Positions 9,234 through 47,652 of a DNA stretch of 64,000 nt are shown here, one piece after another. A program made the position numbers and the translations under genes. Source of the stretch: Eubacteriales bacterium (GTDB lineage Bacteria; Bacillota; Clostridia; Christensenellales; Aristaeellaceae); NCBI GenBank assembly GCA_028693055.1, contig JAQUWD010000001.1:1-64000 (forward strand), read 5' to 3'. The number at the start of each line of letters is the position of its first letter. Position 1 is the stretch's first letter. Under the pieces are notes generated by a model. The model saw nothing but the letters and a program-made list of their open reading frames with translations, was not told where the DNA came from and did no database searches.

Positions 9234-9247
9234 CACCTAATTAGGTG
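9234..9247. promoter_or_regulatory. 14-bp perfect palindrome upstream of the loaP-like gene
   Basis: CACCTAATTAGGTG. Confidence 0.4.
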
Positions 9248-9286
9248 AGGATGGCGAAGCGTTGCCATTTGGACGGGGGAAAAAAG

Positions 9287-9844
9287 ATGGCGGAGTATGA
9301 CCGGGTGCTGTGCTTGTTTTGTAAAGTGGGAAAAGAACAAAGCATTGTGAAATACATTCATGAAAACGGATACGGCCGTGCTCTTTTCCCTCAGAAAACC
9401 CGAAAAACCCGCGACAAGAGTACCCGGGCATGGAAGGAAGAATTAGTACCGATGCTGCCCGGCTATGTGTTTGTGTATGAAACCGACGAGGCGATGCCCA
9501 GAGACAAGTTGCTCTCTCTTACAGAAGTCATCCGTATTCTCGGCTACGAAGCAGGAGAGTCGGATTACTTGAAGGGACATGATTTGGAGTTTGCAAAGTG
9601 GTTATGGCAAATAGACGGAAAGCTTGAAAAGCTGAAGATTGTCCAGGTCGGGGAACGAATCCAAATTGCCGACGACGTGTTTCGTTCACTCTTGGGAAAC
9701 ATACGAAAAGTAGACAAAAGAAGGCAAACCTGCGAGGTTGAGCTCGATAGCCGTAGCATTCTTCAGCACATTTGGCTACCCTATGAAATGATTGATCCAT
9801 CGAAACAGAAAACAACCGATGTTCCGAAGGGCGCGACAACATAG
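9287..9844 (+). CDS. loaP: NusG-family specialised transcription antiterminator, LoaP-like
   Basis: LFCKVGKEQSIVKYIHENG...ELVPMLPGYVFVYE...IRILG NGN domain and VQVGERIQIADDVF...GNIRKVDKRRQTCEVEL KOW-like domain; directly upstream of a long glycan operon. Confidence 0.82.
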   Translation: MAEYDRVLCLFCKVGKEQSIVKYIHENGYGRALFPQKTRKTRDKSTRAWKEELVPMLPGYVFVYETDEAMPRDKLLSLTEVIRILGYEAGESDYLKGHDLEFAKWLWQIDGKLEKLKIVQVGERIQIADDVFRSLLGNIRKVDKRRQTCEVELDSRSILQHIWLPYEMIDPSKQKTTDVPKGATT

Positions 9845-12946: not shown

Positions 12947-14023
12947 ATGAAAACATCAGCCTTGATCATGGCGGGAGGCCGGGGCGAACGCTTCTGGCCC
13001 AAGAGCCGTAAGCAACTACCCAAACAGTTTTTGTCACTAACGAACGATAAAAAATCGATGATTCAGCTGACTGTGGATCGCATCCTGCCGCTCATTCGAA
13101 TTGAGGATATTTACATCGCGACGAATGAAGAATACCGTGAGCTGGTCCATGAACAGCTGCCCGAGCTGCCGCCTGAGAATATCCTGTGCGAGCCGATCTC
13201 ACGCAACACGGCCCCCTGTATTGGCTTGGGCGCCATTACTATGCGCAAGAAATACGGCGATGCAGTAATGGTCGTGCTGCCCAGCGATCACATGATCCGC
13301 CAAAAGCACATCTTCCTGAGCGTACTGAAGGATGCCATCGAGATCGTACAGCAGAAGGAGTCGTTGGTGACCTTGGGCATTTCACCCACTAGCCCCGATA
13401 CCGGATACGGCTACATCCAGTATGAAGCCGATGAGACGGAGGATGAAGGCGGCGCGTACCGGGTCAAGCGCTTTGTGGAGAAGCCGAATATTGAGCTAGC
13501 CAAGGAATACCTGGCTAGCGGCGATTATCTGTGGAACAGTGGTATGTTTGTCTGGAAGACTTCCGATATTCTGAATCTGATGGAGCAATTTCTACCGGAG
13601 AACTATCTGCACCTGACAAAGATCGAAGAAGCTTTGAGCACCGCAGCGCAGGAAGAGGTTCTGGAACGGGAATTCAAGCAGATGCAGTCGATTTCCATCG
13701 ACTATGGTGTGATGGAAAAGGCGAAGAACATCTACATTCTGCCAGCCGCCTTCAGCTGGGACGACGTCGGATCCTGGCTAGCCCTTGAACGGATCAATCC
13801 GCTCAACGATCAACAGAATATCATTCACGGTGATGTCATCACGATCAACACGAAGCGCTGCATTGTGGAAGGCAATTCGAAGCTGATCGCAATGCTGGGC
13901 ATGGAGGATGTAATCGTGGTGGATACGAAGGATGCATTGCTGCTTTGTGCCAAGGAACATGCAGGAGAGATCAAAACCATCGTGGAAACGCTGAAAAACT
14001 GCAATCGTACAGAACTGCTGTAA
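12947..14023 (+). CDS. manC: Mannose-1-phosphate guanylyltransferase
   Basis: [37 protein letters not shown]...[19 protein letters not shown]. Confidence 0.93.
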
Positions 14024-14042: not shown

Positions 14043-15089
14043 ATGAAACGCGCACTGATTACTGGCATTACTGGACAGGACGGATCTTACCTAGCGGAGC
14101 TGCTATTGGAGAAGGGCTATGAGGTTCATGGCATCACCCGCCGCGCCTCGCTCCCGAATACGGACCGGATCAATCACTTGATGGATAAAATCACGCTGCA
14201 TGATGGTGATCTGAGCGACTCCTCCAGCATCCTGCGGATCATGACTCTGGTGCGGCCGGATGAGGTATACAATCTAGCGGCGCAGAGTCATGTGCAGGTC
14301 TCCTTCGATGTGCCCGAATATTCCGGCGATGTAGATGCTATTGGTGTGCTGCGCGTGCTGGAGGCTATCCGTATCTTAGGTCTGACCAAAACTTGCAAGT
14401 TCTATCAGGCTTCCACCTCTGAGCTGTATGGCAAGGTAGAGGAGGTCCCGCAGAAGGAGACCACTCCCTTCCATCCTTACAGCCCATATGCCATTGCAAA
14501 GCAGTATGGCTTCTGGATGGTGAAGGAGTACCGCGAAGCGTATGGAATGTTTGCCGTGAACGGTATTCTATTCAATCATGAGTCCGAGCGTCGCGGCGAA
14601 AATTTCGTGACCCGCAAAATCACCCGCGCCGCCGGCCGCATTGCCTGTGGACTGCAGGACAAGCTGTATCTAGGCAATCTTGACAGCAAGCGTGACTGGG
14701 GTTATGCGAAGGACTACGTGGAGTGCATGTGGTTGATCATGCAGCATGAGGTACCCGAAGATTTTGTCATTGCCACCGGCGTCCAGCATACTGTCCGGGA
14801 GTTCACCACGCTGGTCTTTGCCCATAACGGCATCGAACTGCGTTGGGAAGGCCATGGGCTGGAGGAGAAGGGCATCGACAAGGCGACCAATCGCGTGTTG
14901 GTCGAGGTGAATGCTGCTTGGTTCCGCCCCACTGATGTGGACAACCTATGGGGTGATCCAACCAAAGCCCGGACCGTACTGGGATGGGATCCCCTGAAGA
15001 CCAGCTATGAGGAACTGTGCTCCATCATGGCCGATTACGACATGAAACTTGCTAAGCAGGAGAAGATCCAGAGGGAGCACGCGGAGTGA
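14043..15089 (+). CDS. gmd: GDP-mannose 4,6-dehydratase
   Basis: [91 protein letters not shown]. Confidence 0.96.
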
Positions 15090-15182
15090 GCTTGTCACTG
15101 ACAATACACCAAAAGCGGAAGTGACGGGGCTGCCCCAAGCTAGATCATGGGATCCTCCCGTATCTATCCTCACATGGCTCCT

Positions 15183-15240
15183 CAGCCCATACGGGAATAC
15201 CTGTATGCGGACGATCTGGTTAACCTGTGCGTGCTCCTCC
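15183..15240 (+). pseudogene. Remnant of GDP-L-fucose synthase-like (Fcl/WcaG) gene
   Basis: QPIREYLYADDLVNLCVLL matches the Fcl-family G.PlREFlyvDDLA.ac motif; no flanking intact ORF. Confidence 0.6.
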
Positions 15241-15270
15241 TCTATTTACTTCGTTACCTAATTATACCTA

Positions 15271-15411
15271 ATCATCACTTGCGGCGAAGGCGGCATGGTC
15301 GATACAGACAACGATCGCCGTATTAAGCTGCTCAAGGGTCAGAGCGTCGATTCGAACAAGCGGTATTGGCATACGTTGATAGGTTACAACTACCGCGTTA
15401 AAAATCTGCGA
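15271..15411 (+). pseudogene. Remnant of DegT/DnrJ/EryC1 aminotransferase (GDP-perosamine synthase-like)
   Basis: IITCGEGGMVDTDNDRRIKLLKGQSVDSNKRYWHTLIGYNYRVKNL; N-terminal catalytic half and C-terminus missing. Confidence 0.8.
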
Positions 15412-15426
15412 AGGGTTAATGAAAGA

Positions 15427-16203
15427 ATGAAAACAATGCAGGCTATTTACCGCTACAGAGAAATGATTTTCAGCCTTGTCCGCCGCGAGCTTCGCGGCCG
15501 CTACAAAGCCTCCTTTCTCGGTTTTTTGTGGACCTTTGTCAATCCGTTCCTTCAATTGCTCGTCTACACGCTGGTCTTTTCCGTCATTATGCGCTCCGGG
15601 ATTGAAAAGTACTACCTCTTTTTGTTTGTCGCACTGATCCCTTGGATATTCTTTTCCTCCTCCGTCTCAGTGGGCGCAACGTGTATCGTGAACCAAAGCA
15701 GTATGGTTACGAAAATCTACTTTCCGAGAGAGGTCCTCCCTATTTCTTTTGTGACAAGTCAATTTGTAAGCATGCTGCTTTCCTTTGTTGTTGTGCTGCT
15801 GGTCGTGCTTCTTTCCGGGCTTGGCCTTGTATGGACGCTCTTGCCGATGTTGATCCCCATCATGCTACTGGAATATTGTCTAGCTTTGGGTATCACACTG
15901 ATTGTTTCTGCCCTAACGGTTTATTTCCGCGACTTGGAATATATTACCGGCATTGTTGTCATGGCTTGGCAGTTTATGACGCCCGTTATGTATTCTGTAG
16001 ATATGGTTCCCGAGAACCTACGCGGTATCTTCATGCTCAATCCAATGACTTCTATCATCAGAGCCTACCGTGATATTCTCTACTACCAGCAAATGCCCGA
16101 AATGAACACTCTCCTGCTGTCGGTAGGAATGGCCATTGGTTTTTTGCTGCTGGGCATACTGGTTTTTGGAAAGCTTGAGAAGCGTTTTGCGGAGGAGTTA
16201 TGA
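15427..16203 (+). CDS. wzm: ABC-2 type polysaccharide export permease
   Basis: RRELRGRYKASFLGFLWTFVNPFLQLLVYTLVFS; multi-TM; paired with Wzt. Confidence 0.92.
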   Translation: MKTMQAIYRYREMIFSLVRRELRGRYKASFLGFLWTFVNPFLQLLVYTLVFSVIMRSGIEKYYLFLFVALIPWIFFSSSVSVGATCIVNQSSMVTKIYFPREVLPISFVTSQFVSMLLSFVVVLLVVLLSGLGLVWTLLPMLIPIMLLEYCLALGITLIVSALTVYFRDLEYITGIVVMAWQFMTPVMYSVDMVPENLRGIFMLNPMTSIIRAYRDILYYQQMPEMNTLLLSVGMAIGFLLLGILVFGKLEKRFAEEL

Positions 16204-17558
16204 GTAAGATGAACGAAGGAAATAAACCAGAGCTGGCAGCGCAAAGCAGCAACGCTCCGGTCATCCAAGTATGCAATGTGGAAAAAAAATTCCGGGTTTA
16301 CTATGACAAGGGCTATTCCCTTAAAGATAAGCTGGTTCAGTGGGGCAGAAACCGCTATCAGAATCGATACGTCCTCCGGGGGGTGAGCATGGACGTTCAG
16401 CGCGGCGAAGCCATCGGCATTATTGGCGAAAATGGCTGCGGCAAAAGCACCATGCTTAAAATGCTGACGCGCATCATGTACCCGGACGCTGGTTCCATTC
16501 AGATTAAGGGACGAATTTCCAGCCTGATTGAGCTGGGCGCCGGCTTCCATCCAGATCTCTCAGGCCGGGAGAACATCTATACTAACGCCTCCATTTTTGG
16601 GCTTACAAGGAAAGAAATCAACGAGCGTATGGAGGATATCGTTGAATTCTCCGAGCTGGGCGAATATCTCGATAACCCAATCCGAACCTATTCCTCCGGT
16701 ATGTACATGCGTTTGGCATTTTCCATTGCCATCAATGTGGACGCCGACGTACTGCTGATTGACGAAATTCTGGCGGTTGGCGACGCTAACTTCCAAACAA
16801 AATGCTTTTCACGTTTGCGGGATATTAAGGCAACGGGAACCACGATTGCGATTGTCAGTCACGATCTGGGAACCATTCAAACCTTCTGTGACAAGGCGCT
16901 TTGGCTTTCAGACGGCAAGGCCGCCGCATACGGCAACGCGAAGAGCGTTGTGGAAAGCTACCGACAGTATATGAACGAGAAATACATCGCCTCCCTGCGC
17001 GCGCATGAAGAAGCCGAGCGCACACCCGCCGCGAAGGCTAAAGCGGCTACATCCGAGGAGGAACAAAGCCCTTCCACGCAGAATGCCTCGGCTTCTGAAA
17101 TGGAAAGCAGCATAACGGAAATTGATTACAATGCGAACCGTTTCGGCCTTGGCGACGTCGTTATTACGAGGGTTACTTTCCGCCAAGCCGACGGTCAAAT
17201 CATCCATACGCTCGTTGAGGGCGAACCCACAGACATCGACATCTCCTATGCTGTTCACAAATCCCGATATGCCTATAATTTTGGCATGGGCTTTTATACG
17301 CCGGAAAATGTGTGTCTATACGGCGTCAACACCCAGCTGGATGGTATGGAGGTCAAACTGACGCAGGATGCTGGCTTCGTCCGTTTCCATATGGATCATA
17401 TGCCGCTGCTGGCGGGGCATTATTATTTTCAATGCGCTGTGAACGATATAAACGGCGTTCCATTAGATTACTACCGCCGTTATATGGATTTCGATGTATC
17501 CTCCAGTAGAGCGGCGATCGGCTGCATTCAGGTAGATCATCAGTGGGAAATTTTCTAA
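16200..17558 (+). CDS. wzt: Polysaccharide ABC transporter ATPase with C-terminal Wzt_C-like carbohydrate-binding domain
   Basis: IIGENGCGKSTMLKMLTRI; YSSGMYMRLAFSIAINVDADVLLIDEILAVGD; C-terminal beta-rich domain NRFGLGDVVITRVTF... Confidence 0.93.
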   Translation: MSKMNEGNKPELAAQSSNAPVIQVCNVEKKFRVYYDKGYSLKDKLVQWGRNRYQNRYVLRGVSMDVQRGEAIGIIGENGCGKSTMLKMLTRIMYPDAGSIQIKGRISSLIELGAGFHPDLSGRENIYTNASIFGLTRKEINERMEDIVEFSELGEYLDNPIRTYSSGMYMRLAFSIAINVDADVLLIDEILAVGDANFQTKCFSRLRDIKATGTTIAIVSHDLGTIQTFCDKALWLSDGKAAAYGNAKSVVESYRQYMNEKYIASLRAHEEAERTPAAKAKAATSEEEQSPSTQNASASEMESSITEIDYNANRFGLGDVVITRVTFRQADGQIIHTLVEGEPTDIDISYAVHKSRYAYNFGMGFYTPENVCLYGVNTQLDGMEVKLTQDAGFVRFHMDHMPLLAGHYYFQCAVNDINGVPLDYYRRYMDFDVSSSRAAIGCIQVDHQWEIF

Positions 17559-17594
17559 CCAAAGTGCTTATATATGAAGTGTAGAGGAGAGAGT

Positions 17595-18524
17595 ATGAAG
17601 AAGCTGCTGGTTGTAGGTAGCAATGGCTTTGCCGGGTCTTACCTAAAAAAAGAACTGCTTGATCATGGCTACGAGGTCTATGGCGTCGACTTGAAGAGCA
17701 CAGACAGCAATACCTTTGCTGCGGATATGCTCGTCCCAGAAAACATGAATCGCATCATGGAGGAGGTTCAGCCAGACGGGATTTTTAACCTCTCGGGTTT
17801 TGCCTCGCCTCACTTGTCTTGGGAGCACGTGCTCAAGGCCATTCATCTGAATGTAGATGTCTCTGTTAATTTAGCCCTCGCCATGAAGTCCTTCTGCCCA
17901 AAGGCTCGTTTCATCGTTATCGGCTCCGCCAATCAGTATGATTTCCCTGCATGCCACAATCAGCCGATAAGCGAGCTGTCTCCCTGCAAATCCGATGATC
18001 CCTATTCCGTGTCAAAGCAGGCGCAAGAATCATTGCTTCAGCTATTGGCTAAACGGTATGAGCTGGATATTATGATGACCCGCTCCTTTAACCATATCGG
18101 GCCTAGGCAGCAAAGGGGCTTTGTCGTTTCAGATTTTGCGTCAGGCATTGTAGACGTGGAGCGCGGCCTAACAGACGAGCTTAGGGTGGGTAATTTGGAT
18201 GCGTGGCGTGATTTCTCAGACGTTAGGGACACGGTACGCGCCTATCGCCTGCTGTATGAGAAGGGACATAGCGGCGAGATATACAATGTAGGCTCCGGCA
18301 AGGTCTATCACATTCGCTGGATTCTGGAAACCTTGCTCTCCTACAGCACCGCTTCTCCCCGCATCGCCTACCGACAAATGAACAACGAAATGCCGGCCTT
18401 CACCAAGGTGCTTTGCGACCCGACCAAGCTTTATGAGCATACAGGCTATTGCCCTCAGTGCGATATGGAAGCCACGCTGCGTGATGTGCTCCTGTATTAT
18501 CGCAATCTGCCTTCACCAACATAA
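17595..18524 (+). CDS. NAD-dependent epimerase/dehydratase, GDP-6-deoxy-D-mannose reductase (Rmd)-like
   Basis: LLVVGSNGFAGSYLKKELL; DPYSVSKQAQESL; TRSFNHIGPRQQRGFVVSDFASGIV. Confidence 0.82.
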   Translation: MKKLLVVGSNGFAGSYLKKELLDHGYEVYGVDLKSTDSNTFAADMLVPENMNRIMEEVQPDGIFNLSGFASPHLSWEHVLKAIHLNVDVSVNLALAMKSFCPKARFIVIGSANQYDFPACHNQPISELSPCKSDDPYSVSKQAQESLLQLLAKRYELDIMMTRSFNHIGPRQQRGFVVSDFASGIVDVERGLTDELRVGNLDAWRDFSDVRDTVRAYRLLYEKGHSGEIYNVGSGKVYHIRWILETLLSYSTASPRIAYRQMNNEMPAFTKVLCDPTKLYEHTGYCPQCDMEATLRDVLLYYRNLPSPT

Positions 18525-18543
18525 GGGAAAAAGGAGATCGTCT

Positions 18544-20343
18544 ATGTTGAACACTTCGGAGCCGTTTACAAGGCAAGCGGTAGAAGCCGCGTTGCTCCAA
18601 GGCCTAAACCAGCTTGAGCCTATCGATCCGCAGAAACCTGTTTTCCATGGAAGCATCTGTGAGCTTCCGGATAACACCTTGAAGTCCAAGGTGAAGCTGC
18701 GCCTAAAAAAGAATCGTCTTATTTACGGATGTTGGCTACGCTACAAGGCTTTGCGGGCGCGCAGAGCCTCCCGAGCCTCCTTCAAAACCCGCGTGAAATT
18801 TCGGTTAAAGAATAACCGTCTCGTTCGTTTCCTGATCAATAAGAAAAAGGAACCCGGGCTTGTGCGAGAGGATCACGAGCTGCTGCTTCAGTTGCTGCAA
18901 ATTGCTACCATCAACAGTCAAAAATGCGACGCAACTAGCATTCTCCTCAGCACGGTAGCAAACGTTACCAACATTAACAGCGAGAAATGCGACGAATTAA
19001 CGCTTCTCGCCGATAAGCTAATAGGACAGGCGGACGAGCTTTTAGCCAATACGGGCTTCCTCACGGAGCACGTGCAGCAGGTATCCGACGTCAGAGAGCA
19101 GCTTACCGAGCATTATCGTCAATCCGCGATAGCACTGGATGCTTTACAGCAGCAGCATGACAATCTCTCTTCCGTGCTGCATCAGCTACAGGAGCTTGTC
19201 AAGCAGGATAAGGCAGGCAATGGGGAACGTCTGGACAAGCTGACTAGCGTGCAGAATCAACTGAACGGTTTATCGAATACCTTGCAGCAAGCAGATATCC
19301 GCGTTGGGGAGCGTCTGGACAAGCTGACCAGCGTGCAGAATCAACTGAACGGTTTATCGAATACCTTGCAGCAGGCAGATATCCATGTTGGGGAGCGTCT
19401 GGACAAGCTGAACCACATGCAAGAGCAGCTTGATGGTTTGACAGGTGCATTGCAGCAGACAAATATCAATGCCAATGCCGATCAGAATACTGCATTAACC
19501 ATTTTGACCGGTGCGCACGAAAAGCTGGATGCTTTGAGCCTCGGTATGCAGCAGCTGGCAGGCGATCAGCGGCGATGCCACACAGCCGTCAGCGGCAGTG
19601 ATGCCATTTGCATTCAATATGACTGGGATATTCTACTAGCCGTTCCTAAATCTGACTGGAGGCTGGCTATGTACCTATCCACAGGCGGACATTTTGAATA
19701 CGGAACAGAAAAGCTGTTCCGTGAAACGGTGCATGAAGGTATGGTTGTGCTAGACATCGGCGCGAATGTCGGAGTCTATACCCTGCACGCGTTGAAGCAG
19801 CAGGCAGAGGTTTATGCATTTGAGCCTACGCCTTTAACCTACAGCATTCTTCGTCTGAACACAGAGATGAACGGCTTTGAGTTTTCACACAAAGTGCATT
19901 TGTTTAACGTTGCAGCCTCAAACAAATATGGCGTGGCTAATTTTCAGGAGGTTGAATACACTTGCGGACACAATTCTCTGTATGAGCAGGAAACTGGTTT
20001 CCATCGTATTGAGGTAAGCACCGACCTGATTGATCATCTTGTCGGAAATATAAAGGTGGACTGCTTTAAGCTGGACGTGGAAGGCGCTGAAATGATCGCG
20101 CTGGAAGGAATGGAGCAACTACTGCAGGCAAATACCAGCATTATTGGTTTCGTAGAATTTGCCCCTGGAAATCTTCGTCGAGCGTCTGTGGAGCCGGAAG
20201 TATACTATAACAAGCTTCTTGCATATGGCTTTTTGGACATGCAAGTTATTAACGAGGCAGACGGCAGCCTAACTCCCGTCGCATCCTATGAGCAGATTCA
20301 GCATGTTGATTCCGTTAATCTGCTTCTAAAGAAAAGGAGCTAA
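18544..20343 (+). CDS. FkbM-family methyltransferase with long N-terminal coiled-coil region
   Basis: C-terminal VVLDIGANVGVYTLHALKQQAEVYAFEPTPLTYSILRLNTEMN and KLDVEGAEMIALEGM; N-terminal heptad-rich region. Confidence 0.85.
   Translation: MLNTSEPFTRQAVEAALLQGLNQLEPIDPQKPVFHGSICELPDNTLKSKVKLRLKKNRLIYGCWLRYKALRARRASRASFKTRVKFRLKNNRLVRFLINKKKEPGLVREDHELLLQLLQIATINSQKCDATSILLSTVANVTNINSEKCDELTLLADKLIGQADELLANTGFLTEHVQQVSDVREQLTEHYRQSAIALDALQQQHDNLSSVLHQLQELVKQDKAGNGERLDKLTSVQNQLNGLSNTLQQADIRVGERLDKLTSVQNQLNGLSNTLQQADIHVGERLDKLNHMQEQLDGLTGALQQTNINANADQNTALTILTGAHEKLDALSLGMQQLAGDQRRCHTAVSGSDAICIQYDWDILLAVPKSDWRLAMYLSTGGHFEYGTEKLFRETVHEGMVVLDIGANVGVYTLHALKQQAEVYAFEPTPLTYSILRLNTEMNGFEFSHKVHLFNVAASNKYGVANFQEVEYTCGHNSLYEQETGFHRIEVSTDLIDHLVGNIKVDCFKLDVEGAEMIALEGMEQLLQANTSIIGFVEFAPGNLRRASVEPEVYYNKLLAYGFLDMQVINEADGSLTPVASYEQIQHVDSVNLLLKKRS
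19222..19473 (+). repeat. Three tandem 84-bp repeats (28 aa, four heptads) inside the FkbM methyltransferase gene
   Basis: 19222-19305 GERLDKLTSVQNQLNGLSNTLQQADIRV; 19306-19389 GERLDKLTSVQNQLNGLSNTLQQADIHV; 19390-19473 GERLDKLNHMQEQLDGLTGALQQTNIN-. Confidence 0.92.
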
Positions 20344-20345
20344 TC

Positions 20346-21356
20346 ATGAAGATTTTGATTGCCGGGGCGCTTGCTCCCTATTCCAACCGTCAGGAAAAAG
20401 CTCTATGTGAAGCCGTTGAGCAGCATTATCGTTCTCAGCAGCATACGACGGATCTTTTCTATCTGCCTTGGGAGCCAGATTTCTATGGTGCTCACGAGCA
20501 AATTCTCGCTTACCGTCTGCTCACTGTCTACAACGAATGCGATATTCTCATCACCGTCGGCTATCCAGCCTTCGCGCTACAGCACCCTCGTAAGTATGCG
20601 TTTCTTTTTGATTTTTTCCCCGCGTTTCACACACAATATGGAACCGACTACGGCTTCAAGGATCAGTTTTTCCGTGTAGACCAGGATCAAAAAATGGTCA
20701 AAAATCTGCATCAGGCCGAGAAAGTCTGTCTTGGAGAAGCGCGCAAGGTTTTTGTGGCTAGTTCTACCCTTCAAGAAAATTTGCAATCGCTTGCCTGTCA
20801 GGCAGAACGCTTTTCCTTCACGCCAACTCTTGCAAAGGGAGAGCCATCTCAGGTGGAAAAGGGAAGCATCCTTGTTGAAAGCTATCTGGAGCCGCTAGAT
20901 CGCATCGATCTGCTTTTGCAGGCTGCGGCACTGATGAAGGACAAGCACCCAATTGCTATCATGATTCCGGCGTCAGATCCTCAGTACCAGAATGCCCTCT
21001 ATGAGCGGATTGCCCGCTTGCAGCTGCAAAAGCGTGTGAGTGTGTACGAGCGCGCGGTCACGCTGACGGATCTACAGGACTGTAGCGGCGCCCTATCTCT
21101 CCGCCGTTTTTCTGAATATGTTCCGGCATACGTGTCATACGCCCTAGCCATGGGCATTCACTGTGTTGTTCCCAAAGACGGCGGGGCGCTGTGCAGCCTT
21201 GATGGTCAATCCGAAAACATTTTTGGCGTTTCTGCGGAGGAGCAGAGTATTGCCAAGAGCTTGCAGCGCCTCCCGCTGTATTCAACAAAGCGAAAAGCTT
21301 CGGCAGATTCGTTGAACGCCGATTTGCCGAAGCTTTTGGAAGGATTGGTGAAATAA
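20346..21356 (+). CDS. Divergent GT-B-like protein, putative glycosyltransferase
   Basis: Rossmann-like N-terminus, HPRKYAFLFDFFPAFHTQYGTDYGF, C-terminal GSILVESYLEPLDRIDLLLQAAALM; GT4 signatures weak. Confidence 0.5.
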   Translation: MKILIAGALAPYSNRQEKALCEAVEQHYRSQQHTTDLFYLPWEPDFYGAHEQILAYRLLTVYNECDILITVGYPAFALQHPRKYAFLFDFFPAFHTQYGTDYGFKDQFFRVDQDQKMVKNLHQAEKVCLGEARKVFVASSTLQENLQSLACQAERFSFTPTLAKGEPSQVEKGSILVESYLEPLDRIDLLLQAAALMKDKHPIAIMIPASDPQYQNALYERIARLQLQKRVSVYERAVTLTDLQDCSGALSLRRFSEYVPAYVSYALAMGIHCVVPKDGGALCSLDGQSENIFGVSAEEQSIAKSLQRLPLYSTKRKASADSLNADLPKLLEGLVK

Positions 21357-21357: not shown

Positions 21358-22386
21358 ATGCGCATCGCTCTTGTGAATATGATATCACCATTTATCCGCG
21401 GCGGGGCTGAAATTCTGGTGGACGACCTAATGCATCAGCTTCAATTGCGCGGGCATACCGTGGAGCTTTATCGTTTACCCTCTCCCAATGACTTCGGACT
21501 TTTAATGGCGCGTTTGATCGAAGCGTCCAAGATGCTACGATTTGACCATTATGACCGTGTGATCTGTTTCAAATTTCCAGCCTACTGCGTCATCCATCGA
21601 AATCGTGTGGTTTGGATGTTTCATCAGTTTCGTCAAGCCTATGAGCTTTGGAATACAGAATTTGGTATTGAAGCAAACCCACAGAATGAAATTATGAGAA
21701 ATATTGTTATGCATGCCGATACTGCTTTAGTCGATTCCAGACAGTTGTTTACCATTGCTCACGAAGTCACCAATCGATTGAAGAAGTTTAACAATATTGA
21801 CTCCACTGTGTTACCGCATTTGGGAAACATGGAAAAATTTGGACCCGGTAAAACAGGCTCGTATCTCTTTTTTCCCAGCCGTATCAGTTCAATAAAGCGA
21901 CAACATTTAGCGGTAGAAGCCATGCACTATGTCAAATCGGACGTCAAGCTGGTTGTTGCTGGCGTATGCGAGGTGTCGGCTTATGATTTGCAAATTCGCA
22001 GTTTTATAAAAAAGCATCACTTGGAAGAGCACGTTCAGTACGAAAACCGTTGGATCAGCGACGAAGAAATGTATCAATGGATGTCCAATTGCTTGGGTTC
22101 CATGTATTTGGCCTACAAGGAGGATTCCTGCGGACTTGTGTCCATGGAGGCATTTTATAGTGCAAAGCCCGTCATAACCTGCATCGATTCCGGCGGAACC
22201 ATCGAATTGATCGAGGATCAAAAGACGGGCTTCATTTGTGAACCTACGCCCCAAAGCATCGCCAAGGCCATGGATCAGCTGTACATGGACAAACAAGCCG
22301 CAGCAAAGATGGGTCAAGCCGCGCGGGATGAAATCATCCGGCGTGATATCACTTGGGACAATACCATAAGGAGGCTGCTGGCATGA
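21358..22386 (+). CDS. Glycosyltransferase family 4
   Basis: LVNMISPFIRGGAEILVDDL; FFPSRISSIKRQHLAVEAM; EDSCGLVSMEAFYSAKPVITCIDSGG. Confidence 0.9.
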   Translation: MRIALVNMISPFIRGGAEILVDDLMHQLQLRGHTVELYRLPSPNDFGLLMARLIEASKMLRFDHYDRVICFKFPAYCVIHRNRVVWMFHQFRQAYELWNTEFGIEANPQNEIMRNIVMHADTALVDSRQLFTIAHEVTNRLKKFNNIDSTVLPHLGNMEKFGPGKTGSYLFFPSRISSIKRQHLAVEAMHYVKSDVKLVVAGVCEVSAYDLQIRSFIKKHHLEEHVQYENRWISDEEMYQWMSNCLGSMYLAYKEDSCGLVSMEAFYSAKPVITCIDSGGTIELIEDQKTGFICEPTPQSIAKAMDQLYMDKQAAAKMGQAARDEIIRRDITWDNTIRRLLA

Positions 22387-24992
22387 AAATCGCATGGTTT
22401 ACCCCCTTGGATAAAAAAAGCGCGATCGGCAAGGTTGGCGTCGCCGTCTGCGAGGAGCTTGCAAAGCATCATTCGGTCGATATCTGGTGTTATGAAACTG
22501 AAGGTACCCTTGAGACAAGCCTAAAGGTGATCCACTTTAATCCCTCTCATTTGGATATACGTACACTTTCCGGGTATACCCATGTTATTTACAACATGGG
22601 TAACTATGCCGGATATCATTGGGCCATCTATGAAGCATTGCTCCAATATCCCGGTATTGTCATTCTCCACGACAGAACCATGTACGATTTTTATAAGCAA
22701 TACTGTGCAATTCAGCATCCACACGATGCTGATGGGGCGCATAACGCTTTCTCCCAGATGCTGTATCAAGAATATGGTGATATGGGTGTGACGGCATTAG
22801 AGCAGTTCTCTTCACTGAATCTAATGGAGAAGGTGAACCAAACTGTCGCCCTGCCCCTAATGTACAGCATATGCAGGAGGGCGACAGGAATTTTTACCCA
22901 CTCCTTCGCCTTTGCCAAGCTGCTAAAACAATACACGCTGAAGCCAGTTAGCGCTTCCTATCTCCCCTTTCAGCCTGAAGAGAAAAAAATGGCAGTGCTT
23001 CCAAAGAGTTTTATCCGCGACCCCGATAGACTGCTGATTGTTTCCATTGGGCTGGTGCATCCGACTAAGCATACCAAGGAACTAGCGGATGTTTTAGTCA
23101 AACATCCTGATTTGCGAAGTCGTGTGCAATACGTTGTCATAGGCGACTGTGGCGATCCCTATGGAGAAAATCTCCGCAAGATGGCGAATACAGTGTTGAA
23201 TGACAGCATGTTTATATTGGGCTATCAACCTTACGATGTGATGTACAGCTTTTTACAGGAAGCAGATGCCTGCGTAAATTTACGTTATCCCAATTCTGAG
23301 GTATGCTCGCTATCGCTTTTTGAACAGATGGGCTTTGGCAAGCCAGTTATTGCCTACAGTAGCGGCATTTATGACGAAATTCCTTCGGATGCCATCTGCA
23401 AAATCGATATGCAGATGGGCGAAGCGGCTCTGGCTGATATGCTTCACGCCATGATTGCGGACAAGGAGTCCTTTCGCAGGATTGGTGAAAAGGCTAAGCA
23501 ATTTATCAAAAAGAACTGTACCCTCGAAACCTATTGTTCGCTGCTCAACGAATATCTGGAAGCACTGCCAAGTCAATCCGTGAGAGCGGCTTACAACGAC
23601 GCTATTCTTTGGGATCTGCGTCAAGAAATGCAAGTACTTGGCTATAATACGCTGGATATCCCCGACGCGCTGGATGACATTGCCTACACCGTAGGCAGCA
23701 TTCTTGATGCCCAAAACGTATTTCCTGCCAATCCAAATACCATCGGCATTTGGATTGGCTTTCCCTACGAAATGCCTCGTTTGCATCAGGAATGCGCCAT
23801 GAAGCTTATGCAGCGCATGGTCAGCGCAATGCTTGAATATACGCCGGCCTGTTTCGAAATTTGGTGCTATTCCTGTAATGAAGCAGAAGTGCGGTATAGT
23901 CTTGAAAACCTGCTTCAAGATGAACGTTGGGCTAAACGCATCAAGATTGTTACTGAGGAGAGTTGGAGGCAGGTACTATGCGTGCCTGTCATGGATCGAG
24001 TTCTCCCCTATCCAATTTCCATCGCGGCGGACAATCTGGGAACCATCGCAGCCCAGTATTCGCAGGCATGCGTCTTTGTACCGATTACCCTTTACTTATC
24101 CAATGTCATTCAAACCAAACGCCCACTGGTCATTCCCGCGTTGGATATGAACGTTAAACTCCATTATGAAGAATATACGCTGCAAGACAGCAATAACAAA
24201 TTCCTGAGCCGCGACATCGAAAGCCGTGTCGGTCGAATGGTACGGCGCGGCGCGAAAGCGTATTCGATGAGCCGCTCTGTGAAAGATCAACAAATCATTC
24301 CCTGCATTCCGGGTCTAAAGGCGGAGGACGTCGTACCCATATGGGCTGCTGACATGGCAATCTGCGACCCTGATACTCATTTCTCAAGAGAAATTTTGGA
24401 GCAGTATCATATATCAAATCCATACTTGTTTTATCCAACCCAGCTGCGTCCTCAGAAAAATATAGAAACGCTGATGCAGGCAGTTGAGCTGCTCTACAAT
24501 GAATATCCCAATTTGCAAATCGTTCTGACCGGCAAGTTGGAGGATGTTCCTAGCGTAAAGAAGCAGTGGGAAAAACTGCGCTCCTATAAGAACCTTGTTT
24601 TTGTTCATGATTTGACAGATCAACAGCTGTACACCGTTTATCATTACGCCTCTTGCGTGCCTGTTCCAACACTTATGGAGGGCGGGTTCCCTTCACAAGC
24701 CATCGAGGCGCTAAAACAAAATATACCCACCGTGCTGACCGATATAGACGTTGTAGAGGAGCGTCTGGAGGGATGCGGCTTCACGGCGGAAAACTGCGGG
24801 CTGCTGCTCTTTAAGCCTGAGGACGCGACGGACATGGCCGCAAAGCTTTGTACTGCATTAACAGCGCCGCAAAAGGTTCTGGCGGCACAGAAAGCTTTTT
24901 CCGAAAAGTTTTTCCAGTATACATGGAGGGACGCGGCAGAAAAGTATTATCAACTGCTGATAGCAAAGAAAGGATCTGCAGAATCATGCTAA
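22383..24992 (+). CDS. Large protein with two GT4-type domains
   Basis: First domain: VSIGLVHPTKHTKELADVL...SLFEQMGFGKPVIAYSSG; second: YPTQLRPQKNIETLMQAVELL...VPVPTLMEGGFPSQAIEALKQNIPTV. Confidence 0.85.
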   Translation: MKIAWFTPLDKKSAIGKVGVAVCEELAKHHSVDIWCYETEGTLETSLKVIHFNPSHLDIRTLSGYTHVIYNMGNYAGYHWAIYEALLQYPGIVILHDRTMYDFYKQYCAIQHPHDADGAHNAFSQMLYQEYGDMGVTALEQFSSLNLMEKVNQTVALPLMYSICRRATGIFTHSFAFAKLLKQYTLKPVSASYLPFQPEEKKMAVLPKSFIRDPDRLLIVSIGLVHPTKHTKELADVLVKHPDLRSRVQYVVIGDCGDPYGENLRKMANTVLNDSMFILGYQPYDVMYSFLQEADACVNLRYPNSEVCSLSLFEQMGFGKPVIAYSSGIYDEIPSDAICKIDMQMGEAALADMLHAMIADKESFRRIGEKAKQFIKKNCTLETYCSLLNEYLEALPSQSVRAAYNDAILWDLRQEMQVLGYNTLDIPDALDDIAYTVGSILDAQNVFPANPNTIGIWIGFPYEMPRLHQECAMKLMQRMVSAMLEYTPACFEIWCYSCNEAEVRYSLENLLQDERWAKRIKIVTEESWRQVLCVPVMDRVLPYPISIAADNLGTIAAQYSQACVFVPITLYLSNVIQTKRPLVIPALDMNVKLHYEEYTLQDSNNKFLSRDIESRVGRMVRRGAKAYSMSRSVKDQQIIPCIPGLKAEDVVPIWAADMAICDPDTHFSREILEQYHISNPYLFYPTQLRPQKNIETLMQAVELLYNEYPNLQIVLTGKLEDVPSVKKQWEKLRSYKNLVFVHDLTDQQLYTVYHYASCVPVPTLMEGGFPSQAIEALKQNIPTVLTDIDVVEERLEGCGFTAENCGLLLFKPEDATDMAAKLCTALTAPQKVLAAQKAFSEKFFQYTWRDAAEKYYQLLIAKKGSAESC

Positions 24993-27712
24993 AGACATTG
25001 TACACAAAAACAATCGGAGGAAAGCACGGCTGGCTGTGGTGCTTTTTCCTCATGTTTCTCCTCATGGGGCTGTGTAATCTGCATTATCCCCTTTCCGGGC
25101 AAGCATTGACTATGGGCGATGGCCCGGGCAGTATATATTTTCCCGAATGGTTCTCCCAGCAGTATACTTCCGGTCAGCTTCCCCTTTGGAGCAGCGAAAG
25201 CGCCGGCGGCATACCGGTCTCCTCGCATATGCTGGGTGCTTTCTTTCTGATTCCACTTCTTTTTGCCCAGCTTCCCCTGACTTGGTTCATTTGGCTGAAC
25301 TATGTGTTTTTCGTTTCCTTTGGAGCATGCTTCTTTGCCCGTTATCTGGAGGAGCTGGGCGTCAACCGCAAGCTATCCGTCGCAATGGGCTTTGTTCTGT
25401 TGTTCTGTTGTCATTTTGGCGGTCTTCGGAAATCTCATATTACTATCATTGAATGCATTTCCCTTTATCCGCTAATCTTTTTTGCCTTCCAGCGCTTTTT
25501 AAACACTCAAAAACGCTCCGCTGTCGTTCTGGCGGGACTGGGCTGCGGAACGATGCTGCTGGTTACGACCCCTTCCGTGCAGTATGCTATGTACCTGATG
25601 CTGGGGCTTTTCGTATACGTGCTGGTCGGCTGTGTTTGCCGAAGGATGAAAGCAAAGGATATTGTTCTAAATGTTTTTCTTTTCCTTGGCATAACAGTCG
25701 CCGCCGGTGCCGTGCAGGTTCTACCGGGCTATCTGCTTATGCAACGCTATTCGGCTCTCTGCACCACGCCGAATTATCCTTATGCGGCTTTCGTTTCCTA
25801 TTCCATTCATCCTGTCAAGCTGTTAATTGCCTTCTTTCCCAATCTTTTTACGGACGTCTATCAAGCGTTCGGTGCATACCATTCTTCGGAACTGGATATT
25901 GAGATTTTTCTTGGCACAGTGGCGGCGGCGACGATTGTCTTTGGTCTGCTGCGGTATAGGAAGGATCGCCGTATATGGCTGCCCGCACTGATTTCCTTCT
26001 TTGCTTTCCTCTATGCAGCCAACGGGAACATTCCCTACCTGTCTAAGATTCTGTACAAAATCCCCCTCTTAAACAGTGTGCGCTGCCCCAGCAGATGTCT
26101 TTTCCTTTTCGTTTTTCTTCAGTACACCATTCTAGGGGTCACGCTATCTCGTATCTGCAAGGAAAAAGCAGAGCTGGCGGCTTATCGAAAATTTTTAGCT
26201 AGCTATACCGTTGTGCTGGGATTAGGTCTAGTGCTAGCTTATACCACACCAATCCGCACTCTCATGGAGCGCACAGGTCAGATCAATATGGACGCTTTCT
26301 CCGTAGCGCTGCACGGACTAGGTCCCGTGGTTTTACTGCAAATCATCCTTTTCTTCTGTAACGCAGTAACACAGCGTTTTTCTGACAATGGGCGAGTTCC
26401 CGCCATTTGTTTGGCTGTGGCGCTGATTATCAGCTGTATTGCCGAAACCGCGCCATACTTTTTTGTGCCAACGGCAGGAACGGTTCCTTCAGCGTCCTCT
26501 TCTTTGCAACAAATTATTCAGGCAAATGACAATGGAAAAACAATCACGACATATACCACCGTTGATGTTGGAGCTCCGTCCGAAACCTTCGCCGCAAACA
26601 TACAGATGCATACCGGCGTTCCATCGCTAAATACCTACCTTACCTATAACAATCCTTATCTGTGCAAGCTGTTGTGGCTAGGCGCTGCTCCTAACGTGCC
26701 CTACTGGAATTTATCTGGTCTACAAACAGGTTATGGCACCTTACGGGCACTCCTACAAAACAACGAGATTCTTTCTGCGTTGGGGGTAAAATATATTGAG
26801 GATCAAACGGGCATGCTCGCGCAGAACATACCCATACTAAATAGCTCGACGGAAGAAGCCCCCCTCCTTACAGTGGATGAGCTGCTTCTACCTGTGTGTA
26901 CAGCGGAGTACCAATGCATCCCCTATCCCATGCAGCTTGAGCGGGGAACAACCTATTGGATTTCCTTTGATGTGGAAACCGAAGCCGTTCCAGAGGTGTT
27001 TTATCTTGACTTTTATGGTACAGATTATGACAATAGCGAACAAACGGCTACCTTTTTGCCAGCGACGGGCGCTCATCACTATAGTGGTTTCATTTTTTCC
27101 GGCGATGCGGAGCTGCCCACGGACGCCATGCTACGTATCGTTACTATCAACAAAACTGCCCCTTTAGCCATTCGCAACCTGACCGTTTCACGAATTGCGG
27201 CGAATACTACTGTCTACCAGCCAATGAATGACGAGGCTGGAAACCTGTATTATCGCAACACACGGGCTAAGGAAATTCTCTTTACCGTAGATGAGCTTCA
27301 GCAAATGGAAAACCTTGACGATATTGAAATCTGCCCGAACAACTACCGCTTTACCAGCGTTGCCTATGCGGAGGATGTAGAAACGACCAACCTTTCCAAT
27401 GTGACAACCACCTTCTCCGATGTTACATGGCTTACCAACCATACCTTGCAGGCGACGGCAGTCAGCAATGGCAGGAATTTCGTTGTGTTTTCACAATGCT
27501 ATGACCCTTCATGGCGCGTCTACGTTGATGGGCAGCGGGTAGAAAACCACCGTGTTGATCTAGCGTTACAGGGCTTCTGGCTGGAAGATGGCCAGCACAC
27601 GGTAACCTACGAATATTGCCCATTGGATGTTTATATTTGTCTCGGTATTACAGTCCTCGCTTATCTGCTGGGCGTAGCGTACCTGATCTGGGATCGGCGG
27701 AAGACTTGTTAA
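24986..27712 (+). CDS. YfhO-like multi-pass membrane protein (putative lipid-linked sugar-dependent glycosyltransferase)
   Basis: Many TM segments, MGDGPGSIYFPEWFSQQYTSGQLPLWSSESAGGIP, PCPSRCLFLFVFL-type loop, C-terminal SQCYDPSWRVYVDGQRVE...DGQHTVTYEY. Confidence 0.75.
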   Translation: MLKTLYTKTIGGKHGWLWCFFLMFLLMGLCNLHYPLSGQALTMGDGPGSIYFPEWFSQQYTSGQLPLWSSESAGGIPVSSHMLGAFFLIPLLFAQLPLTWFIWLNYVFFVSFGACFFARYLEELGVNRKLSVAMGFVLLFCCHFGGLRKSHITIIECISLYPLIFFAFQRFLNTQKRSAVVLAGLGCGTMLLVTTPSVQYAMYLMLGLFVYVLVGCVCRRMKAKDIVLNVFLFLGITVAAGAVQVLPGYLLMQRYSALCTTPNYPYAAFVSYSIHPVKLLIAFFPNLFTDVYQAFGAYHSSELDIEIFLGTVAAATIVFGLLRYRKDRRIWLPALISFFAFLYAANGNIPYLSKILYKIPLLNSVRCPSRCLFLFVFLQYTILGVTLSRICKEKAELAAYRKFLASYTVVLGLGLVLAYTTPIRTLMERTGQINMDAFSVALHGLGPVVLLQIILFFCNAVTQRFSDNGRVPAICLAVALIISCIAETAPYFFVPTAGTVPSASSSLQQIIQANDNGKTITTYTTVDVGAPSETFAANIQMHTGVPSLNTYLTYNNPYLCKLLWLGAAPNVPYWNLSGLQTGYGTLRALLQNNEILSALGVKYIEDQTGMLAQNIPILNSSTEEAPLLTVDELLLPVCTAEYQCIPYPMQLERGTTYWISFDVETEAVPEVFYLDFYGTDYDNSEQTATFLPATGAHHYSGFIFSGDAELPTDAMLRIVTINKTAPLAIRNLTVSRIAANTTVYQPMNDEAGNLYYRNTRAKEILFTVDELQQMENLDDIEICPNNYRFTSVAYAEDVETTNLSNVTTTFSDVTWLTNHTLQATAVSNGRNFVVFSQCYDPSWRVYVDGQRVENHRVDLALQGFWLEDGQHTVTYEYCPLDVYICLGITVLAYLLGVAYLIWDRRKTC

Positions 27713-31053: not shown

Positions 31054-31884
31054 ATGATAGATCAGATTACGAAACTTGAAAGGGCCGCAACGAAAATTCG
31101 CAGACAGCTTTTAAAGCTCTGCTCCATTCAGGTTATTCACATTGGTGGTGACCTTTCCAGCACAGATTTCATGACAGTACTCTGGCAGTACCAAATGAAG
31201 TACGATCCTAAGAACCCAAAGGACGAAGGACGAGATCGCTTCGTCCTATCAAAGGGACACGCCTCCGCTGTAACAAGTTTTAATCAAGCTGCTATTGGAT
31301 GCTTTAGCCCAGAGGCTGTTATCAATGAATATGCAACAGATAACGGTCGCTTTTCCATGCACTCATGCAATATCGTCAATCCATATGTTGAAGTGTCTAC
31401 AGGCAGCTTAGGACATGGCTTTCCAGTCGCCTGTGGCATGGCGGCGGCGTTGCGCTTAAAAGGCAACCATACCAGTAGAGTTTATGTAGTAATGGGCGAC
31501 GGCGAACAATCCGAGGGATCAATCTGGGAAGCTGTGATGAATGCGTATCATTACAAACTTGGCAACCTTGTAGCCATCGTGGATTGGAATGGCCTTGAAT
31601 CAGACGGTACGCTTGACCAAATTACCGGATTGGGTAATCTGGCAGAAAAATATAAGGTATGCGGCTGGCGTGTATGCGAGCTAGATGGTCATGACATAAC
31701 CGCTATCAAAGAAGCGTTCGACCAGCTTCCACCTGCAGATTCAAATCAACCGACCGTGTTCATCTGTCATACTATCAAGGGAAAGGGCATTCCTTTTATG
31801 GAAAATCAACTCCACTGGCATGCGGGGAAAGTGACGGCTGAACAGTATACCGAGGCAATACAAGCTTTGAAAATGGAGGTGTGA
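31054..31884 (+). CDS. Transketolase, N-terminal (TPP-binding) subunit
   Basis: DRFVLSKGHASAV; GSLGHGFPVACGMAAALRLKG; VVMGDGEQSEGSIWEAVMNAYHYKLGNLVAIVDWN. Confidence 0.93.
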   Translation: MIDQITKLERAATKIRRQLLKLCSIQVIHIGGDLSSTDFMTVLWQYQMKYDPKNPKDEGRDRFVLSKGHASAVTSFNQAAIGCFSPEAVINEYATDNGRFSMHSCNIVNPYVEVSTGSLGHGFPVACGMAAALRLKGNHTSRVYVVMGDGEQSEGSIWEAVMNAYHYKLGNLVAIVDWNGLESDGTLDQITGLGNLAEKYKVCGWRVCELDGHDITAIKEAFDQLPPADSNQPTVFICHTIKGKGIPFMENQLHWHAGKVTAEQYTEAIQALKMEV

Positions 31885-31887
31885 CGA

Positions 31888-32865
31888 ATGGCTGATTTAA
31901 CGGCAAATGTTTTCTTACGCAATGAAATCGGTAACGAAATGATCGAACTTGGCCAAAAGGACCCGCGTGTAGTTGTCGTCAACGCCGATTTGATGGGAAC
32001 TTGCCGAAACGGAAGCTTTGTAGAGAAGTTTCCGTCTCGCTCTTTTAACGTAGGAATCGCTGAGCAAAATTTGGTCAGCTTTTCTGCTGGACTTGCCCAT
32101 GAAGGCTTTATGCCCTTTGCCTTTTCAATGAGTCCATTTCTTACAATGCGCGCCTGTGAACAATGCAGAACGGACATAGCCTATGGGCAAGTAGACGCAC
32201 GATTGATCGGAACATACGCTGGATGCTCCGGAGGTATTTCTGGTGCAACGCATTGGTCTGTTGAGGATTGCGCCATTATGACAAGTATTCCAGGCATGAC
32301 GGTGTTAGAGCCTTGCGATGCCGGACAAGTACGAAAGATGCTACATGCCGCACTTGCGTACCACGGCCCAATTTTCATCCGTAGCACGATAGAGCCGGTA
32401 TGCGCTGTATATACTGAAGACACCCCCTATGAGATTGGCAAGGCCGCTGTCCCATTAAATGGAACTGATGGTGCCTTCATTTGCTCGGGAATCACCGTCA
32501 AATATGCACTGATAGCCGCTGTACGGATTCGAGAAAAAACTGGAAAACAGATTCGCGTTGTGGACATGCATACATTAAAGCCCATCGACCGTCATGCAGT
32601 TGTGGAAGCTGCTAGAACCGGGCATATCGTCGTAGCTCAGGATCATAACATCGTTGGCGGATTGGGCTATGCCGTTTCAGCGGTGCTCGCAGAAGAGGGT
32701 CTGTCAGTAAAATTTGTAAATCTCGGTTTCCCTGACCATTTTGTCCCCATGGCTCATGCGTCATACCTCTACCGCCAATTCGGCTATGATGACGTAGGTT
32801 TGGAAACCAAAATGCTTGAATTACTTAGCAATGAACCAGTCAGGGATACGCTCGAAAGGATTTGA
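31888..32865 (+). CDS. Transketolase, C-terminal subunit
   Basis: FNVGIAEQNLVSFSAGLAHEGFMPFAFSMSPFLTMRACEQ; RVVDMHTLKPID. Confidence 0.93.
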   Translation: MADLTANVFLRNEIGNEMIELGQKDPRVVVVNADLMGTCRNGSFVEKFPSRSFNVGIAEQNLVSFSAGLAHEGFMPFAFSMSPFLTMRACEQCRTDIAYGQVDARLIGTYAGCSGGISGATHWSVEDCAIMTSIPGMTVLEPCDAGQVRKMLHAALAYHGPIFIRSTIEPVCAVYTEDTPYEIGKAAVPLNGTDGAFICSGITVKYALIAAVRIREKTGKQIRVVDMHTLKPIDRHAVVEAARTGHIVVAQDHNIVGGLGYAVSAVLAEEGLSVKFVNLGFPDHFVPMAHASYLYRQFGYDDVGLETKMLELLSNEPVRDTLERI

Positions 32866-43178: not shown

Positions 43179-43611
43179 TCTTTTTCTTCAGTTCCTTCTT
43201 CTCATAATCGTTCAACCATTCAAGAAAAGCGGCGGTTACGCGAAACATGCGAGACAATGATTTTAAATCTTGAATTTCCACCGTGTCTTTATCCAGCGCC
43301 TTAAGCACAATTTCCTCGTTTTTCTCATTCCCATAGATCCAAGGGGTGATCTCCATAATCTCGTTATCTCTGCGTTTGAACATATAGGAGCCGAAAGGAA
43401 TATTTAGCATATTAATAATCGCAGACATCAGCAGCGTCTCCGACACCTCGTTTTTTACAAACGCATCGCGCCAGAAGGTAGCGGTGGGATGCTTGCGGTA
43501 TTCGGCGTACAGGCGCTCTGCATCGCTCAAAACGCCTAAGCAAATAGCGCTGTAATACATTTTTTCGAAGTTCTTGCCATCGTTTTTCAGAATCAGCGAT
43601 GTAGACTGCAT
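43171..43611 (-). CDS. Conserved-looking hypothetical protein (146 aa) in EPS operon
   Basis: Intact ORF overlapping the downstream GT-GGDEF gene by 8 bp; no family recognised. Confidence 0.6.
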   Translation of the reverse strand: MQSTSLILKNDGKNFEKMYYSAICLGVLSDAERLYAEYRKHPTATFWRDAFVKNEVSETLLMSAIINMLNIPFGSYMFKRRDNEIMEITPWIYGNEKNEEIVLKALDKDTVEIQDLKSLSRMFRVTAAFLEWLNDYEKKELKKKNG

Positions 43612-43631
43612 GCTGTAACGCCTTCTCTCCG

Positions 43632-44324: not shown

Positions 44325-44389
44325 ACTAACACTCCTCCATCTACAGCAACGCGTGAAGCAACGCTTCATCTATTGTATTTATCCTATAA

Positions 44390-44418: not shown

Positions 44419-44455
44419 GGTCGAAAACGATGTTTTTAGGCCAAAACACACATTT

Positions 44456-47633: not shown

Positions 47634-47652
47634 GACTGCGGCCTTCCTTCCG

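Follow-up and report, generated by a model that had tools for sequence, protein, structure and literature searches.

A coiled-coil FkbM methyltransferase beside a glycan exporter in Clostridia as a candidate chain capper and molecular ruler

How might a bacterium with no evident lipopolysaccharide (LPS) pathway terminate, measure, and license a glycan exported by an ATP-binding cassette (ABC) transporter? The question is raised by a gene cluster in a 64,000-nucleotide stretch of DNA (positions 1 to 64,000 of contig JAQUWD010000001.1, assembly GCA_028693055.1; here called the window) from a Eubacteriales bacterium of the family Aristaeellaceae (order Christensenellales, class Clostridia). A 599-residue protein that joins a predicted coiled coil to an FkbM-type methyltransferase is encoded there downstream of wzm and wzt, the genes of a glycan exporter. 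On our best reading, this protein is a mirror-image analogue of WbdD, the chain terminator of Escherichia coli O9a and Klebsiella pneumoniae O3, with the same geometry reversed in sequence. The full proposal, that it is a tethered chain capper whose coil sets chain length, has in our judgment about an even chance of being correct.

The gene starts at the ATG at position 18544, which is preceded by an AAGGAG-like ribosome-binding site; a longer open reading frame (ORF) from 18433 was rejected as the gene start, as it would overlap the upstream gene. The protein runs from a basic N-terminal segment through a proline-free, heptad-periodic spacer to a C-terminal FkbM domain (Table 1). This domain scored 85.7 bits with TIGR01444 (cut-off, 37.7) and 45.1 bits with PF05050 (cut-off, 22.7), and Foldseek placed its model among class I S-adenosylmethionine (SAM) methyltransferases (E about 5e-5). 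An earlier, sequence-only reading of this DNA had described an FkbM-type methyltransferase with an N-terminal coil, together with Wzm and a Wzt carrying a carbohydrate-binding domain. Both descriptions were borne out by the profile matches (PF01061, PF14524, TIGR01444, and PF05050) and the heptad periodicity, with the spacer lying ahead of residue 368. No kinase family was matched in the 599-residue protein by profile searches.

Several measures point to an extended arm between the basic segment and the enzyme. The spacer holds no proline in its 245 to 270 residues, and its strongest hydrophobic period, taken over 245 residues, is 3.52 residues, a signal matched by none of 1,000 shuffles. A COILS-type script, a rough tool, assigned 73 residues to a coil at P > 0.5 with a 28-residue window (181 to 225 and 288 to 315) and gave four coil segments with a 21-residue window. 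Modeling of the coil length, as proposed in the sequence-only reading, yielded three AlphaFold2 helices from a three-row alignment (residues 146 to 222, 230 to 305, and 312 to 349); they would span ~30 nm, at low confidence (predicted local distance difference test score [pLDDT] of about 50), and the FkbM domain was modeled better. If fully helical, the 245 to 270 residues would reach 37 to 40 nm. The coil also contains in-frame tandem repeats, copies 1 and 2 of which are 95% identical in DNA and 27/28 identical in the encoded residues. Each repeat would add ~4.2 nm if helical, and such a four-heptad duplication is predicted to extend the coil with its phase unbroken.

Searching the genome collection with the full-length protein returned no close homologue. 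With the methyltransferase domain alone as the query, we found two, in Christensenella hongkongensis HKU16 and in Christensenellaceae isolate OttesenSCG-928-K19 (K19), both members of another family of the same order. Generic class-level FkbM matches, in which the alignment was limited to the domain, were set aside. The catalytic domains of the three proteins are 43 to 49% identical, and all three have a basic motif (L[KR]NN[KR]xxR[WF][IL]) ahead of the spacer. The spacers are 270 residues long in the window and 123 and 147 residues long in the two homologues; across these proteins, the enzyme is conserved and the arm length variable. The cassette of Gmd, an Rmd-like reductase, the coil-methyltransferase, two glycosyltransferases, a double glycosyltransferase, Wzm, and Wzt with its binding domain recurs in C. 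hongkongensis, and the truncated K19 contig carries it except for Gmd, Wzm, and Wzt.

In known terminators, a coil carries the enzyme at its distal tip and the polymerase lies near the membrane (PMC11231755, PMC5082667), and their signature is a coil and terminal enzyme adjoining such exporters (PMC11231755). WbdD consists of an N-terminal methyltransferase and kinase, then the coil, and then a C-terminal membrane region (PMC3482155, PMC5082667). Its coil spaces the enzyme ~200 Å away, and altering coil length shifts the modal chain length in O9a-type systems (PMC5082667). As in the WbdD systems, a coil-borne modifying enzyme is encoded in the window beside Wzm and a Wzt that has a binding domain, and the logic of cap and ruler proposed here is the same. 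Unlike WbdD, the window protein has an N-terminal basic segment and coil, a single C-terminal FkbM domain, and no kinase; it has neither the N-terminal WbdD-type methyltransferase (with a kinase in O9a) nor the C-terminal coil and membrane-interacting region that mark the WbdD family. The earlier suggestion of a possible analogue rather than a WbdD homologue is thus well supported by the same parts list, a different methyltransferase family, reversed polarity, and the missing kinase. In K. pneumoniae O7 ORF6, O4 ORF7, and O12 WbbB, a coil likewise parts the terminating module from the polymerase (PMC11231755), but the catalytic modules belong to unrelated families, and the order is enzyme, coil, and then (in O7 and O12) polymerase. 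The Gram-positive case is WsaE with Wzm/Wzt of Geobacillus stearothermophilus, where an ABC-exported rhamnan, an S-layer glycan, carries at its end a methyl cap that Wzt has been proposed to recognize (PMC2943079). This comparison, also drawn in the sequence-only reading, is apt as a methyl-cap precedent; it does not extend to the architecture of WsaE (an N-terminal methyltransferase fused to two glycosyltransferases, with dTDP-L-rhamnose used) or to an S-layer carrier, which is unsupported in the present genome, where no SLH protein was found.

The mechanism that we propose would begin with cytoplasmic synthesis of a polyprenol-linked D-rhamnose-type glycan, to be exported via Wzm/Wzt. Through its basic N terminus, the 599-residue protein would dock to the glycosyltransferases or to the membrane, and its coil, probably oligomeric and spanning ~200 to 250 residues (as much as ~30 to 37 nm if unbroken), would space the FkbM domain from the polymerase. 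A free chain end reaching that domain would be O-methylated and stop growing, and the methyl end would then be read by the Wzt binding domain, licensing export. The modal chain length would follow from the length of the coil and would shift in ~4-nm steps through tandem duplication of whole heptads. What we observe are the genes, their domains and conserved linkage, a conserved enzyme on spacers of different lengths, and the kinship of the Wzt binding domain with a methyl-cap reader; we infer the sugar identity, methylation at the chain terminus, docking, the oligomeric state, the ruler action, and cap recognition.

Relatives of the window's Wzt suggest how such an arm may be reused. The Wzt shares a clade with 22 others that are at least 44% identical; for the next Wzt, the identity drops to 34%. 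Within it, an FkbM-ended coil protein lies beside wzt in the window and a few genes 5' of wzm in C. hongkongensis. At other clade loci, numbered as in the survey below, wzt has as its neighbor a coil protein with a Methyltransf_23 end (L069, L072, L077, L080, and L083) or a hexapeptide acyltransferase end (L037, L038, and L039; more distant in L040, at L040:16088-16981), or a coil protein without a recognizable catalytic end is present (L036, L081, L084, and L086). The L039 coil independently carries a 28-residue tandem repeat. The catalytic end thus varies among the coil proteins of the clade, and the arm-plus-exporter arrangement therefore persists as the enzyme changes. Where a coil and hexapeptide acyltransferase occupy the place of the methyltransferase of other clusters, an acetyl-type chain cap is a candidate product.

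A small uncharacterized module, made up of the motif [IV]DxxxIMxxIR, a short coil, and a basic helix, was also observed in the vicinity of wzt genes of the clade, either on its own or joined to an acyltransferase or a methyltransferase (L031, L034, L036, L038 to L040, L047, L069, L070, L077, L080, L081, L083, L084, L086, and L087). It recurs in nearly all sister Wzt loci, and none was found in the other Wzt_C loci or the background sequence searched. We looked for this dock-anchor-coil module in the window protein, where it was not detectable; docking in the window must therefore use a different segment.

The variation in arm length also fits a simpler role for the coil. Capping and cap reading by Wzt could proceed as proposed, with the coil a mere oligomerization or docking tether and chain length set, for example, by competition between the cap enzyme and the polymerase. 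The more than twofold spread in spacer length among homologues that share the cassette speaks for this, as the precise length is not conserved, and several clade loci have coil modules without an enzyme. The heptad-phase duplications, in contrast, lengthen the coil while keeping its continuity, and coil length does change modal length in O9a-type systems (PMC5082667). We consider a coil that only tethers somewhat unlikely.

A role in cap recognition is proposed for the C-terminal domain of the window's Wzt. Both PF00005 and PF14524 scored above their cut-offs, with ABC_tran covering residues 59 to 190 and Wzt_C covering residues 311 to 444 (79.7 bits; cut-off, 30.4). The nearest solved Wzt is that of Aquifex aeolicus. 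A profile of 21 clade Wzt sequences matched it at 326.9 bits over the ATPase domain and, separately, at 45.2 bits over the binding domain (i-Evalue, 6.5e-11). The native A. aeolicus chain is a rhamnose/mannose polymer with a 3-O-methyl cap, and the binding domain binds the 3-O-methyl-D-mannose cap with Trp362 stacked on the methyl group (PMC9445017, which gives no description of the cap methyltransferase). The Trp362 position is taken by Tyr424 in the window's Wzt and by Tyr or Phe in 21/21 clade rows. Of the other pocket positions, Ala348 is identical (Ala413), and Thr346, His350, and Leu300 correspond to Gln411, Asn415, and Gly364 (HMMER alignment). The likeness to the A. aeolicus exporter lies in both alignable domains, the rhamnose/mannose polymer (predicted for the window), and the aromatic residue at the methyl-stacking position; the remaining cap-pocket residues are mostly unconserved, and Aquifex is Gram negative with LPS. 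To judge from the alignment, a methyl-ended hexose is a plausible ligand of the window's Wzt. An AlphaFold2 model of this Wzt, built from two sequences, was too poor and was left unused.

The methyltransferase might instead be a decorating enzyme that does not terminate the glycan, acting on internal residues or making a serotype-type change of the last residue, as with RfbT in Vibrio cholerae O1, whose target is the terminal sugar of a perosamine glycan exported by an ABC transporter. This would suit FkbM as a broad O-methyltransferase family, the very weak similarity of the domain to the RfbT profile (19.6 bits, under the cut-off of 27.9), and a PerA-like gene remnant in the cluster that recalls perosamine glycans. 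No long coil is known in RfbT-type enzymes, and the cassette is without any other obvious end-modifying enzyme. Furthermore, in characterized exporters, the presence of a binding domain on Wzt implies that the chain end is recognized (PMC9445017), and decoration without termination is in our view unlikely. In V. cholerae, unmethylated Inaba strains are natural variants, so methylation is dispensable for making that glycan (PMC9929944).

At the level of the order and class, we searched for Wzt_C in 396 and 391 genomes, respectively, and walked the neighborhoods on the wzt strand, counting as a coil protein any for which 35 or more coil residues were predicted. Coil proteins were present among the first three genes 3' of wzt at 43 of 82 loci and among the three genes 5' of wzm at 4 of 75. 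Per gene, this amounted to 45/234 downstream versus 4/205 upstream (P = 1e-9 [by Fisher's test], kinship ignored). As background, 800 kb of arbitrary sequence was taken from three of the surveyed genomes, and 7 of its 585 ORFs (1.2%) had such a coil. Many other coil proteins that we scanned had the order methyltransferase-coil or methyltransferase-coil-glycosyltransferase, which is WbdD- or O7-like. Moderate coil scores and a low-confidence model would suit a weak or incidental helical linker tied to the Wzt by a shared operon only, but the strong downstream/upstream asymmetry and a periodicity unmatched by shuffling make this very improbable.

Near-identical tandem repeats of 21, 33, 42, 63, or 84 bp were seen in the wzt-linked coils of L026, L027, L036, L039, L051, L088, and the window, and their copy number may vary between strains. 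At three loci (L026:6692-9742, L028:10386-14192, and L051:9510-11914), a protein of ~300 residues, a methyltransferase by eye only, adjoins a coil protein whose N terminus appears kinase-like by eye; in L026 and L028, the latter has glycosyltransferase family 2 (GT2) domains after the coil. No Pfam kinase match was obtained in these three kinase-like proteins. The pairs are possible split methyl-phosphate terminators.

A number of points weigh against the capper-and-ruler proposal. Its largest weakness is that it is built from genes and models. FkbM enzymes can methylate internal residues as well. Within the protein, coil scores are only moderate, the spacer holds 14 glycines, the basic segment is not strongly amphipathic (hydrophobic moment of 0.43, moderate), and the AlphaFold2 model as a whole, from a 3-sequence alignment, is weak (pLDDT, 50.8). 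No coil-enzyme adjoins wzt at clade loci L041 and L043. The independent cases in the survey are fewer than 43, because the statistics ignore kinship and eight of the positive loci probably represent a single GT2 enzyme family whose members have a short coil at the N terminus. Strong tandem arrays were not commoner in wzt-linked coil genes (10/46) than in unrelated coil ORFs (2/7), and the coil-compatible periods found in 8 of the 10 arrays (21, 33, 42, 63, and 84 bp) would be favored by any functional coil. The ruler and cap-recognition steps gain circumstantial support because the linkage is conserved, the spacers form a length series, the catalytic end is replaced, and the binding domain is Aquifex-like.

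Coil-ruler termination is established for Gram-negative O antigens, and the experimental papers that we found concern those. We found no paper joining FkbM, a coil, and Wzt or describing coil-ruler capping in Clostridia (most subscription journals were outside the search). That these parts are conserved in Clostridia, with the polarity reversed and with catalytic ends that can be exchanged, suggests a general mechanism for measuring surface glycans and licensing them. More tentatively, and at rather less than an even chance, Clostridia may have a large and modular repertoire of glycan terminators tethered by coils, with at least two polarities, one exporter clade combined with different catalytic ends (FkbM methyltransferase, Methyltransf_23, and hexapeptide acyltransferase), and coil length evolving by whole-heptad tandem duplication. 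If so, the set would include acetyl-type caps, and glycan length would be heritable and adjustable in ~4-nm steps in monoderm bacteria. The natural 123-, 147-, and 270-residue spacers and the 28-residue tandem repeat offer a ready test series; C. hongkongensis is cultured and sequenced, and glycan size is measurable there.

As for the carrier of the glycan, the lack of an evident LPS pathway, remarked on earlier for the window, holds genome-wide: no LpxC match was obtained (PF03331; the control search was positive in four known genomes). An LPS O-antigen cluster was rejected on this basis. An S-layer carrier by SLH was also rejected, as the 94.6% complete genome has no PF00395 match (a search aimed at the SLH type only). 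The genome encodes two Wzy_C/ligase-like proteins and three LCP proteins; the latter, with the missing LpxC, support the Gram-positive setting assumed in the sequence-only reading. Because LpxC and SLH are unmatched and the LCP and Wzy_C/ligase-like proteins are present, the glycan is most likely not LPS but a monoderm polymer attached to the cell wall or to a lipid.

Table 1. Features of the exporter cluster and of the coil-FkbM protein (window positions)
Feature	Position	Strand	Basis or remark
ManC-like mannose-1-phosphate guanylyltransferase (GDP-mannose supply)	12947..14023	+	PF00483, PF22640; TIGR01479 344 bits, just below cut-off 373
Gmd, GDP-mannose 4,6-dehydratase	14043..15089	+	TIGR01472 515.8 bits (cut-off 415)
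Decayed PerA-like (GDP-perosamine synthase) aminotransferase remnant, 52 residues, non-functional	15271..15417	+	54% identity to intact L009 gene
Wzm, permease of glycan ABC exporter	15427..16203	+	PF01061 E=3.9e-19; 54.5% identity to C. hongkongensis Wzm
Wzt, ATPase with C-terminal carbohydrate-binding domain	16200..17558	+	PF00005, PF14524
Rmd-like reductase, probable GDP-D-rhamnose synthesis	17598..18524	+	Short-chain dehydrogenase/reductase (SDR) family, PF01370/PF16363; beside Gmd in relatives
Coiled-coil FkbM methyltransferase, 599 residues, candidate capping enzyme	18544..20343	+	
Basic segment with twofold repeat (KVKLRLKKNRL / RVKFRLKNNRL), residues 47-104	18682..18855	+	Proposed membrane or polymerase dock
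Coil/helical spacer, residues 146-349	18979..19590	+	AlphaFold2 helices
Three tandem 84-bp (28-residue, four-heptad) repeats within coil	19221..19471	+	Tandem Repeats Finder, in frame
FkbM methyltransferase domain, residues 368-599, class I SAM fold	19645..20343	+	TIGR01444; Foldseek
GT4-like protein, always directly 3' of methyltransferase	20346..21356	+	Weak PF13692; same place in L007/L020, L009/L021
GT4 glycosyltransferase	21358..22386	+	PF00534 E=6.4e-22; order conserved
Double-GT4 glycosyltransferase, candidate polymerase	22383..24992	+	Two PF00534 stretches; same-place orthologues of 888 and 875 residues
YfhO-type membrane protein, possible extracytoplasmic glycosyltransferase	24962..27712	+	PF09586
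CDP-sugar branch: RfbF, RfbG, RfbH, split transketolase, SDR, GT2 with C-terminal membrane helices	27821..34756	+	

The exporter genes lie in a polysaccharide cluster on the + strand that extends from a LoaP-like antiterminator (9245 to 9844; score under the model cut-off) to ~34756. The core gene order is ManC, Gmd, gene remnants, Wzm, Wzt, the Rmd-like reductase, the coil-FkbM protein, two glycosyltransferases, the double glycosyltransferase, and YfhO, followed by the CDP-sugar branch. ManC, Gmd, and the Rmd-like enzyme probably form a GDP-D-rhamnose-type pathway; no equivalog model scored over its cut-off for the reductase, so its expected activity is without model confirmation. The PerA-like remnant was matched by tblastn to the intact PerA-like aminotransferase gene of K19 (E = 1e-16), a locus (L009) that also adds an acetyltransferase-like gene. 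The remnant lies between Gmd and Wzm, and its match indicates that the cluster probably descends from a perosamine-making ancestor, with only the GDP-D-rhamnose route left if the Rmd-like enzyme acts as expected. In the same gene scar (15090 to 15420), a stretch in another frame looks, by eye only, like the final part of a GDP-fucose synthase.

The CDP-sugar genes, assigned with TIGR02623, TIGR02622, and PRK15407 (all over cut-off) and matches to PF00456, PF02779, PF02780, and PF00535, probably serve the synthesis of a side branch. The split transketolase (N and C halves, 31054 to 32865) lies between RfbF-RfbG-RfbH and the SDR protein and may give a branched-chain sugar via two-carbon addition to CDP-3,6-dideoxy-4-ketohexose. 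The YfhO-type protein and the GT2 with C-terminal membrane helices (33791 to 34756) share an operon with these genes, an arrangement that looks like extracytoplasmic side-branch glycosylation after export. No Rfam family matched within 8500 to 36000. A second polysaccharide cluster occupies 41118 to 58970 on the - strand, with a sugar transferase (PF02397), several GT2 and GT4 enzymes, a Wzy_C protein (52843 to 54141), a GDSL lipase/metallophosphatase fusion (47653 to 49683), and a GGDEF protein (49680 to 51485).

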